A DNA stretch of 35,030 nt from Alcaligenaceae bacterium. GTDB lineage: Bacteria; Pseudomonadota; Gammaproteobacteria; Burkholderiales; Burkholderiaceae_B. The stretch's first letter is position 1. The number at the start of each line of letters is the position of its first letter. The position numbers and the translations under genes were made by a program. Below the pieces are notes generated by a model. It was not told where the DNA came from, ran no database searches, and saw only the letters and a program-made list of their open reading frames with translations. Positions 2,756 through 35,030 of this stretch are shown here, piece by piece. The DNA is taken from the NCBI GenBank assembly GCA_029268595.1, contig JAJUGB010000011.1, positions 1-35,030 on the forward strand. Direction: 5' to 3'.

Positions 2756-4660
2756 TTATACCGGCGTAGCAGCCGTATTGCCCTTTTCTCCGCCCACAGA
2801 GGACAGGCCGGTGGAAGGCGGCGTGTTGTCTGAAGCGTCAGGCGACTCGAAATCTTTGGGAGGACGGGGAGGACGGCCTTCCATGATGTCGTTGATCTGG
2901 TCGGTGTCGATGGTTTCCCACTCGAGCAACGCCGCCGCCATCGCTTCCATCTTGTCGCGATTGCCTTCAATGATGTCACGCGCCACCTTGTACTGCTCAT
3001 CGATGATGCGGCGGATTTCCTGATCCACCTTCTGCATGGTCGATTCAGACATATGGGTGGTTTTGGTTACGCTACGACCAAGGAAGACCTCGCCTTCATT
3101 CTCGGCGTACACCATGGGGCCCAGAGAGTCTGTCATGCCGTACCGCGTGACAATGTCGCGCGCAATGGCGGTAGCTCGCTCGAAGTCGTTAGAGGCGCCG
3201 GTGGTCATCTGATTCATGAAGACCTCTTCGGCAATACGACCACCGAACAGCACGGCAATCATATTGAGCAGGCGCTCTTTATCCATGCTGTAGCGGTCGG
3301 ACTCCGGCAACTGCATGGTGACGCCCAAAGCACGTCCGCGAGGAATAATGGTGACCTTGTGAACCGGATCGGTCTTGGGCAGGCTACGAGCCACCAAAGC
3401 GTGACCCGACTCGTGGTACGCGGTGTTGCGGCGCTCTTCCTCGGGCATGACCAAGGCGCGGCGTTCGGCACCCATAATGATTTTGTCTTTAGCCTTTTCG
3501 AAGTCCTGCATATCGACCGTGCGGCCATTACGCCGTGCCGCAAACAAGGCCGCTTCGTTAACCAGGTTAGCCAGGTCGGCCCCGGAAAAGCCGGGGGTCC
3601 CACGAGCCAGAACAAGCGGATCTACGTTGGGGGCCAACGGCACTTTGCGCATGTGCACTTTAAGGATTTGCTCGCGCCCGCGGATATCTGGCAAGGACAC
3701 AACCACTTGCCGGTCGAAGCGACCCGGCCGCAATAAGGCTGGGTCGAGCACGTCGGGCCGGTTCGTGGCGGCGATAACAAGCACGCCCTGTCCAGTCTCG
3801 AAACCATCCATCTCAACCAGCAGCTGGTTAAGGGTTTGCTCGCGCTCGTCGTTGCCGCCGCCCAGGCCGGCCCCGCGCTGACGTCCGACGGCGTCGATCT
3901 CGTCAATAAAGATGATGCAAGGCGCTTGCTTCTTTGCATTCTCGAACATGTCGCGCACACGCGCTGCGCCCACACCCACGAACATCTCGACGAAATCGGA
4001 GCCGGAGATGCTGAAGAAGGGAACCTTTGCCTCGCCGGCGATTGCCTTGGCAAGCAAGGTCTTACCCGTACCGGGTGAACCCACCAGCAGGACGCCGCGG
4101 GGAATGCGGCCGCCCAAGCGCTGGAACTTGGTGGGATCGCGCAAGAAATCGACGAGTTCCTTGACATCTTCTTTGGCTTCGTCGCATCCGGCGACATCAG
4201 CGAAGGTGATGTTGTTGGTGTTCTCGTCCATCATGCGAGCGCGCGATTTGCCGAAGCTGAACGCCCCACCCTTGCCGCCGCCCTGCATTTGGCGCATGAA
4301 GAAAATCCATACGCCAATCAGCAGCAGCATGGGGAACCAGGAGATGAACAAGCTGGTAAGGAAGGACGGTTCTTCGCGCGCCTTGCCCGATACCTCGACA
4401 CCCGCCTTGACCAACTCGGGCACCATCCACAAGTCGCCCGGCGAAGTCAGGCTATATGGCCGACCGCTATCGGGCGTCACGTAAATGGTGTCGCCTTGGA
4501 TGTCCACTTTATTGACGCGGCCGGAGCGCGCATCATTCATGAACTGCGTATACGTCACCGTATCGGTGGACGCCACCCGGCCGTCAAACTGCTTGAATAC
4601 AGTGAACAGAACCAGGGCGATGACCATCCATATGGCAACCTTGGAAAAAGAGTTGTTCAA
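2756..4660 (-). CDS. ftsH: ATP-dependent zinc metalloprotease FtsH
   Basis: FtsH is the membrane-anchored AAA+ protease that degrades regulatory proteins and damaged membrane proteins. With the start chosen here it has 634 residues: TM segments at about 8-24 and 101-121 around a periplasmic domain, Walker A GSPGTGKT (194-201), Walker B IIFIDE (249-254), the AAA second region of homology, and the zinc site HESGH (416-420). The start is a TTG at 4658-4660, giving an N-terminus [11 protein letters not shown]. Another TTG six bases upstream sits only one base from the ribosome site, whereas this one is 7 nt away. The C-terminal tail is Pro/Ser-rich. It follows rlmE after 76 bp, the conserved rlmE-ftsH pairing, and precedes folP. 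Confidence 0.95.
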
Positions 4661-34173: not shown

Positions 34174-34653
34174 ATGACAACCACTTATGTCGGCATGGGC
34201 GCCAATCTGGGCGACGCTGGGCAAGCGCTATAGGACGCGGCTACTGCTCTGACCAAATGTGAGGGCATTCAAGCCGTCGAGTTGTCACCTTTGTACTCCA
34301 CGGCCCCTATCGATTCCACCGGGCCGGACTACACCAACGCCGTCGCCCGGGTGCTTACCACTCTCACCGCCACGGCTTTGCTGACCCAACTGCAAGCGAT
34401 AGAACTGCGCTTCGGCCGCACCCGCCCCTACCGCAACGCCCCGCGCACCCTAGATCTGGATCTGCTGCTGTTCGGCGACGAGACCATCAATCTACCCGAA
34501 CTGACAGTTCCCCACCCACGCATGCACGAGCGCGCCTTTGTCCTACGGCCACTGGCCGACCTCGCACCCGACCTCGTGTTACCGCAAGGCCCCATCCTGG
34601 ACCTGCTGGCCGCTTGTTCTGATCAACCCATACAGCGTTTGGCATCCAGGTAA
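34174..34653 (+). pseudogene. folK: folK (HPPK) interrupted by an in-frame TAG at codon 20
   Basis: FolK pyrophosphorylates 6-hydroxymethyl-dihydropterin, giving the FolP substrate. From the ATG at 34174 the frame reads MTTTYVGMGANLGDAGQAL and then TAG at 34231-34233. After it the same frame stays open to the TAA at 34651-34653 and carries the rest of a normal protein: SPLYSTAP, GPDYTNAVA, the catalytic RTLDLDLLLFGDE and VPHPRMHERAFVLRPL. Full length would be about 159 residues, normal for HPPK. A single C-to-T change in CAG would create this stop. There is no frameshift and the downstream part looks undecayed, so it is a recent mutation, a base-call error, or read through. The only later in-frame start near the break is a TTG at 34282, which would lose the pterin-binding N-terminus. 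Confidence 0.8.
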
Positions 34654-34685
34654 GCCCGCAATGGGTTTTCAAGAACAGCGCGCAA

Positions 34686-34769
34686 ACGACAGGTCTGAAA
34701 CCACAAGTGTGAAACAACACGTCTGAAACGACACGTCTGAAACGACACGGCTCATACGACACGTCTTTC
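34686..34769 (+). repeat. Six tandem copies of a 14-bp unit downstream of folK
   Basis: Units start at 34686, 34700, 34714, 34728, 34742 and 34756, with consensus ACGACACGTCTGAA; units 3 and 4 differ at one base and the others at two to four. A decayed seventh begins at 34770. The period is not a multiple of three, so it is unlikely to be coding. A weak hairpin with a T run (34652-34668) between folK and the repeat may be a terminator. No gene is visible from 34654 to the window end. Confidence 0.9.
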
Positions 34770-34798
34770 ACAACCGTCAATCCACCTCAACGTCCAGG

Positions 34799-35030
34799 TG
34801 CTGGGCCGGGCCTCGTGTCCGGGCCTTTCGCGTGCGCCGCCCGATTCCGTGATTCGGGGACAAAAGGTCGCGGCTGCTTGAGCGCCAAGTTTTCGGGAGC
34901 ACTGCTCCCGAGGCGCGAGGTTCCGCGACCGCCCCGAATCGCGGAATCGGGCGGGAAGCCCGGAGGGGAACCCATAGGGGACCCCATAGGGCCGCTAAGC
35001 GCAGGCCCGGACACGAGGCCCGGCCCAGCA
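34799..35030. repeat. Large nested inverted repeat at the window end
   Basis: Outer arms 34799-34825 and 35004-35030 are perfect 27-bp inverted copies. Inside them, in nested order, lie 34839-34859 with 34932-34952 (21 bp, one mismatch), GGTCGCGG 34866-34873 with 34923-34930 (8 bp), an imperfect pair 34877-34886 with 34912-34920, and a central hairpin 34893-34900 with 34904-34911 (8 bp, 3-nt loop). The right side carries about 50 nt (34953-35003) against 13 nt on the left, including CCCATAGGG twice, 12 bp apart. No transposase or credible frame lies in it. It ends exactly at the last base, so what follows is unknown. Confidence 0.9.

Follow-up and report, generated by a model that had tools for sequence, protein, structure and literature searches.

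The question raised by this locus was whether the long inverted repeat at the right edge of the analysed stretch (35,030 nt; hereafter the window) is a genuine genetic element and, if so, of what kind. The window is the entire contig C11 of a 3.14-Mb draft genome of an Alcaligenaceae bacterium in 267 contigs. An earlier note, made from the sequence alone, had described perfect arms, the capacity to fold into a single long rod, and a doubled sequence on the right side. The outer arms were indeed perfectly complementary, but 28 nt long rather than 27 (Table 1). The predicted fold of 34780–35030 was one rod with a minimum free energy of −193.6 kcal/mol, far below that of shuffled controls (mean −116.9, sd 4.9; z = −15.8; 0 of 200 shuffles as good). 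The doubled sequence, CCCATAGGG, was found at 34971–34979 and 34983–34991; the extra right-hand stretch carrying it belongs to the side arm at a three-way junction and varied in length among copies. The outer edge GTCCAGG is predicted to form imperfect pairs with the CCGGG found at the start of contig C179.

Table 1. Features of the element at the right edge of the window and of the gene upstream of it.
Feature	Position	Strand	Basis or remark
folK-like (HPPK) frame	34174..34653	+	upstream; runs towards the element
Outer edge GTCCAGG	34792..34798	+	resembles the 5' edge of this genome's other copies (alignment of 8 copies)
P1, outer stem, 5' arm	34799..34826	+	28 nt, 100% complementary to 35003–35030
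Three-way junction strand, TTCGCGTGCG in the window copy	34827..34836	+	fold and alignment of copies
P2, inner stem, 5' arm, ends CGGGG	34837..34859	+	23 nt, 96% complementary to 34932–34954
P3, 5' side, GGTCGCGG	34866..34873	+	folds and core alignment
Conserved internal loop, 5' strand, CTGCTTGAG (family CTGTYTGAG)	34874..34882	+	nearly invariant in 51 aligned cores
P4 and apical hairpin, TCGGGAGC-ACT-GCTCCCGA	34882..34916	+	pairing kept; sequence and length vary
Conserved internal loop, 3' strand, CGAGGTT (family CGAGTT)	34916..34922	+	core alignments
P3, 3' side, CCGCGACC	34923..34930	+	folds
P2, 3' arm	34932..34954	+	complementarity to 34837–34859
Side arm P5 and junction, with doubled CCCATAGGG	34955..35002	+	fold and alignment; shorter in some copies
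P1, 3' arm, truncated where the contig ends	35003..35030	+	probably continues on C179 as CCGGGTTAAGAACC

The sequence stops at 35030 because contig C11 stops there, inside the right arm of the element, which answered a check proposed in the earlier note. Contig C179 opens with the identical 28 bases followed by CCGGGTTAAGAACC, much like the right ends of other copies. Since C179 shares both the arm and a family-type right end, the break was most likely an assembly break at the repeated arm. The suggestion that assembly had stopped because of the palindrome therefore held for the window edge only. That the element itself is an artefact of the contig end could be argued from the position of the break within the right arm and from the occurrence of that arm on C179; however, further copies sit within contigs of this genome as well as within genomes assembled as a single contig, so the element is real, and this explanation is hardly tenable for anything beyond the join of C11 and C179, which is itself a likely reconstruction. 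No intrinsic terminator (a short G+C stem followed by a T run) was found in window positions 34500–35030, which lie on the C11 side of this join.

The folK-like frame upstream had a Pfam HPPK match (3.7e-29) for 34282–34653. It contains an in-frame TAG at 34231–34233, so that the listed open reading frame (ORF) begins late, at 34282; the TAG could represent a sequencing error, a pseudogene or a real truncation. The first gene of C179 (93–1619, minus strand) encodes a fumarase (PF05681, 2.1e-97; PF05683, 3.7e-85) and also points at the element. With both genes running towards it, the window element is probably flanked by folK and fumarase in converging orientation across the putative join. Positions 34671–34768, between folK and the element, consist of tandem direct repeats of the AACGACACGTCTGA type with a 14-bp period, and tandem repeats likewise occurred outside the element tails at two loci of Parapusillimonas granuli (L063 and L067).

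A DNA search revealed eight dispersed copies in this genome at 76–100% identity, and a broader model added three more (C79:11536–11612, C148:14–89 and C194:5244–5320). Aligned in one orientation, the eight copies shared a common architecture and the same kind of rod fold, with unrelated flanks. A covariance model of the core built from 17 sequences (R1) matched 23 of 61 genomes, the own genome included; in a search across the family it matched 71 of 250, spread over 24 of the 43 sampled genera. The highest copy numbers were at least 49 (G024) and at least 46 (G032); because only the best candidates are scored in searches of large genomes, these numbers are lower bounds, as illustrated by G024, with at least 49 copies in the 61-genome search and at least 17 in the 250-genome search. 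In all, 8–11 copies were found here and up to at least 49 in relatives, bearing out the suggestion of a multi-copy intergenic hairpin family. A strict pattern scan retrieved nine named stretches, all from Alcaligenaceae or from organisms with a genus label of that family, including P. granuli, Neopusillimonas maritima and Paralcaligenes ureilyticus; G032 appears to be the last of these.

Homologues extended across the Burkholderiales and to other gammaproteobacteria. R1 matched 21 of 349 genomes in a sample of the order, and the core was kept in the 13 out-of-family matches that were folded (12 loci: L053, L054, L055 twice, L202 and L204–L211). A broader model from 51 cores (R2; E up to 1e-4), with an imperfect consensus structure of 19 pairs, matched 58 of 300 genomes in the order and, at class level, 19 of 274 sampled genomes, the own genome being counted in each; all five class-level loci inspected (L212–L216) kept the core. 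Eight of the loci outside the family (L055, L202, L205–L207 and L209–L211) carried a second, A/T-rich hairpin of the TTTGGTTACTTTCTTT...AAAGAAAGTAAC type after the element. An A/T-rich hairpin of the GGTTACTTTCTTT...AAAGAAAGTAAC type following out-of-family homologues was also seen in L212, L214 and L216, and looks like a conserved companion.

Like Rfam families, the element combines a covarying structure with a conserved loop, yet the window stretch and 12 loci reached no gathering score in Rfam 15 (MIR820, 22.8 bits vs. 196; mir-2756, 40.6 vs. 61). The literature search returned no description of the element family among the matches listed, and this family of folded elements of approximately 230 bases is apparently undescribed. 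A plasmid or phage origin was rejected, as neither the plasmid collections (three queries) nor the phage collection (one query) gave a match.

The core had the architecture P3-CUGUYUGAG-P4-CGAGUU-P3', in which the strands TGTYTGAG and CGAGTT were nearly invariant in 51 cores while the stems differed. In the 17-sequence core, 95.5% of cells were paired, with a covariation score of 0.427 (0.140 when shuffled, at most 0.106 when slid). Doubly changed cells numbered 76 against a mean of 22 in shuffles, which are not a strict test given the relatedness of the core sequences, and sliding the partners destroyed the signal. Comparison of orthologous elements (n = 45; at least 85% identity, without N) pointed the same way: 303 of 540 changed stem-pair cells were compensatory, and double changes led to a Watson-Crick pair in 303 cells and otherwise in 2, with 7299 cells unchanged and 13 gapped. 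These cells are not independent, being counted in both directions among three genomes.

If DNA symmetry alone maintained the palindrome, one would expect G·T and A·C mismatches to occur with equal frequency along a given strand. When 84 distinct elements were folded without G·U pairs, the single mismatches comprised 113 G·U, 21 A·C and 111 others; G·U was in excess in 49 elements, A·C in 6, and 29 were tied. The bias extended to the outer arms, which lie outside the search model (86 G·U, 17 A·C and 67 others), and single changes of a Watson-Crick pair in the 45 ortholog comparisons gave 114 G·U, 45 A·C and 76 other mismatches. This preponderance of G·U over A·C marks the strand carrying TGTTTGAG as the one with the protected fold. 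In its simplest reading the folded molecule is RNA, with single-stranded DNA as the alternative. Of the structured RNA proposed in the earlier note, the covariation on a defined strand, the strand-specific tolerance of G·U and the nearly invariant internal loop were thus found; its transcription is a prediction.

A one-direction count gave 151 compensatory changes, 87 of which cannot pass through a G·U intermediate and 91 of which were isolated. At locus L168 of P. ureilyticus, the right junction and side arm had been replaced by the complement of the opposite (left) arm, likely a template-switch event. These compensatory changes and L168 fit template switching between arms, a process described for RNA genes in PMC8794818. 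As such switching can itself yield paired changes, covariation carries less weight than it ordinarily would, and it is the strand bias on which the argument depends. Taken to its limit, the same process could have produced all covariation as a by-product in a DNA palindrome without any selection on the fold. This is very unlikely: it accounts for the changes that bypass G·U, for the isolated ones and for the arm replacement at L168, but predicts neither the strand-specific surplus of G·U relative to A·C, nor the nearly invariant loop, nor the scarcity of insertions and deletions.

The latter was apparent at orthologous sites. In 56 ortholog comparisons, 47 elements were gap-free and 9 had gaps. 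Median identity was 0.935 for the elements, 0.79 for the adjacent 70 bp and 0.909 for the 1-kb flanks, where counting only sites with an R1 match in both genomes raised the identity and favoured conserved elements; seven of the 56 fell below 0.8 and may include wrong partners. Most element sites examined were common to three species of one genus with single-contig genomes (G190, G159 and G120), indicating that movement is rare or old there. An apparent absence of the element at L160 was discarded, as it coincided with an N run.

Copies were frequently paired. Six single-contig genomes together contained 149 copies; 33 neighbours lay less than 2 kb apart, and 32 of these were oriented tail-out (−,+), with orthologous doublets counted per genome; copies and orthologues are not independent events. 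In two clear cases, whole doublets had been copied to unrelated sites. In G002, doublets L074 and L075 aligned along 710 bp (90.6% identity), and their flanks did not match. Doublets L076 and L078 matched in two pieces of 454 and 257 bp, separated by approximately 720 bp in L076 vs. approximately 46 bp in L078; the additional stretch in L076 carries genes for a ParE-like toxin and a PaaA2-like antitoxin, a pair lacking in its homologue L078. Loci L063 and L067 shared 1.03 kb including the tandem tail repeats, a weaker case than these two, and L072/L073 was dropped as evidence for mobility of the unit, as 1.66 kb to the left matched as well.

Spacers measured about 60–1474 bp in 31 of the 32 doublets and less in one. 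Among the 31 usable spacers, 27 were 60–561 bp long and genes with Pfam matches occurred only in the four longest, so a conserved cargo gene was rejected as a rule. Apart from the toxin-antitoxin pair, facing elements enclosed two GNAT genes (L080), a nitroreductase (L082) and an antitoxin-like gene (L085); since a cargo-free homologue was found for L076 alone, the genes in these three could be ordinary genes between two single elements. Ten ORFs of 61–90 aa, taken from nine other spacers after setting aside smaller ORFs and those coded by repeats in L137, gave no Pfam match; the spacer of the L137 doublet (4193–4660) contained long simple repeats, which yield homopolymer stretches when read in several frames. 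In G214, the same doublet recurred on contig C1 at 3023266, 3068516 and 3113766, a spacing of exactly 45,250 bp, which suggests either that a large segment was triplicated in tandem or that the pattern stems from the assembly.

Losses of one half were also observed. At L134 and L192 the left half was cut at its tip, while the doublet was intact in L156; an interpretation of L134/L192 as an empty site was rejected, as the loss of the left half was a deletion inside that half. L123 lacked the right half present in L200, a less clear second case. Singles are thus, at least in part, remnants of doublets, which is clear at one site and suggested at a second.

Whichever strand of a tail-out doublet is read, its 3'-terminal hairpin has the folding sense, which fits a role at transcript ends and recognition of 3' ends in single-stranded DNA alike. 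Folded hairpins beside small cargo (toxin-antitoxin and GNAT genes) recall the attC sites of integrons. Those sites occur in one orientation, one per cassette, unlike the close neighbours found here, 32 of 33 of which were tail-out. The doublet might be a class of small mobile gene cassette in which two RNA-like hairpins of approximately 230 nt, tail-out, end a cargo-capable unit and a mobilising enzyme recognises the CUGUYUGAG/CGAGUU fold at the 3' end of each strand; we consider this a tentative and rather doubtful extension of the data.

Dispersal was evident in P. ureilyticus (G032), where 20 of the 46 copies were compared: 179 of the 190 pairs matched (medians 314 bp and 81.6%), and these 20 copies had no other match longer than 150 bp in pieces of 2.6–2.7 kb. 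Dispersed occurrence at unrelated sites, inverted ends and a lack of coding capacity in the element are shared with miniature (MITE) and other transposons with terminal inverted repeats. In contrast to MITEs, single elements are palindromic almost throughout, with a strand-specific fold and a nearly invariant loop. Inspection by eye of the ends of L074/L075 and L076/L078 showed no target-site duplication, and no clean empty site was found. The non-autonomous mobile element proposed in the earlier note was therefore upheld as regards dispersal and duplication of whole doublets, whereas target-site duplications and a mobilising enzyme were not found.

None of the enzyme families tested explained the spread. 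The Y1 transposase (PF01797) occurred in 5 of 23 element-bearing genomes and was absent from the element-rich G001, G017, G024, G027, G032 and G034 as well as from G000. Eight of the 61 genomes encoded the Y2 transposase (PF04986); three of these were among the 23 with the element, and none was among the same seven. RAYT/Y1 and Y2 (IS91-type) transposases were rejected as partners, as neither tracked the element. Reverse transcriptases (PF00078) showed a weak association (13 of 23 element-bearing vs. 12 of 38 other genomes; Fisher 0.066) and were absent from G024 (49 copies), G027 (29) and G002 (22). If the doublets are mobile, an enzyme recognising a large folded end awaits discovery.

Such an enzyme is central to the possibility, which we place on the unlikely side, that the doublet is purely selfish and non-autonomous, moves via single-stranded DNA as an enzyme-recognised hairpin, and sits where insertions are tolerated. 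The dispersal to unrelated sites with duplication of whole doublets, the many similar copies in P. ureilyticus and the rarity of elements between diverging genes, where promoters lie (4 of 63 sites), agree with this, and G·T pairs are tolerated in single-stranded DNA too. The distribution of the Y1 and Y2 transposases described above is at odds with it, as are the sites held in common by three species of one genus, with few indels and an identity above that of the adjacent spacer.

Genes were called to the left and right of 63 element sites; 29 of these gene pairs were converging, 30 tandem and 4 diverging, vs. 66 converging among all 371 adjacent gene pairs at the same loci. The Fisher value of 5.5e-9 for the converging excess, obtained after removing the 63 sites, is an approximation. 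Gene contexts came from a simple home-made caller that was not always consistent between orthologues (L140 converging, L147 tandem), and orthologous sites were counted per genome. Doublets lay between converging genes in 12 of 16 cases. In tandem settings, 14 single elements had the orientation of the genes and 13 the opposite one, so that a simple rule of a 3' UTR read in sense fails there. In this genome, the window site and those on C115, C79, C3 and C42 were converging and that on C15 tandem (C34 and C118 gave no clear assignment).

Our preferred reading, with a probability of roughly 0.5, is a REPIN-like selfish doublet of unusually long structured hairpins, kept behind genes by a folded RNA at transcript 3' ends; its transcription, 3'-end role and mobilisation are postulated from the comparative analysis. 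On one strand each element folds into a rod. A variable outer stem leads to a three-way junction, from which a side hairpin branches, and then to an inner stem that also varies, the nearly invariant internal loop and a variable tip. The basic unit appears to be the tail-out doublet element(−)-spacer-element(+), and singles arise, at least partly, through loss of one half. Selection on one strand keeps the fold, as the G·U excess and the few indels indicate, probably assisted by template switching between the arms, of which one likely event was seen. The selfish doublet could then survive between genes, converging ones above all, because the folded RNA would close or shield transcript 3' ends.

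Alternatively, the element could primarily be a functional non-coding RNA or a protein-binding RNA site, e.g., a platform at the CUGUYUGAG/CGAGUU loop, with dispersal as a secondary matter. A loop that is nearly invariant over 51 cores with variable stems, the G·U bias and conservation above the adjacent spacer would all be expected. However, copy numbers ranging from 0 to 49 among related genomes fit a tolerated repeat better than an essential RNA, and no sigma-70-like promoter was found in the window stretch 34500–35030; we regard a primary RNA function as unlikely.

The REPIN component of the preferred reading is a working likeness. With REP, BIME and REPIN sequences the element shares dispersed palindromes, inverted doublets, many remnant singles and a proposed RNA role. 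A REP survey (PMC3733652) reports doublets in inverted orientation, single copies that are remnants, and locations behind genes as well as between converging ones, all of which have counterparts here. It describes REPs as simple hairpins of 20–40 bp with a GTAG or CGTC tag and doublet spacers of mostly 20–100 bp, and CGTC REPs as lacking a dedicated transposase. Membership fails on size, tag and transposase. The window element spans at least 34799–35030, and 40 of the 84 distinct elements were bounded by folding at 205–245 nt, the rest not being cleanly bounded. Among these 40, GTAG was absent and CGTC stood on the 5' side of five, the window copy included, while 18 had an AGAA-containing tail (4.0 expected from shuffling). 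The length of approximately 230 nt, the three-way junction, the nearly invariant internal loop, the wider spacer range and the lack of a Y1 transposase in the most element-rich genomes further set the element apart from REPs.

ERIC/IRU sequences are intergenic imperfect palindromes present in many copies in Enterobacteriaceae and relatives, with an ERIC consensus of 127 bp. The present elements resemble them as multi-copy imperfect palindromes between genes and are distinguished, by this general description, through the shorter length of ERIC/IRU.

The family provides a natural test case for the persistence of long hairpins, in which selection on the fold and copying between arms can be compared side by side at orthologous sites. 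The elements also break assemblies, and one rearrangement breakpoint sat at an element: between G190 and G159, the two sides of L127 were found at two element loci, L148 and L182. In the right element of L129 and L160, the apical hairpin differed as a block (TATGGTTTGTCC vs. GTACTTGGTCC type), and the GTACTTGGTCC type was also present in L134, as if swapped between copies.
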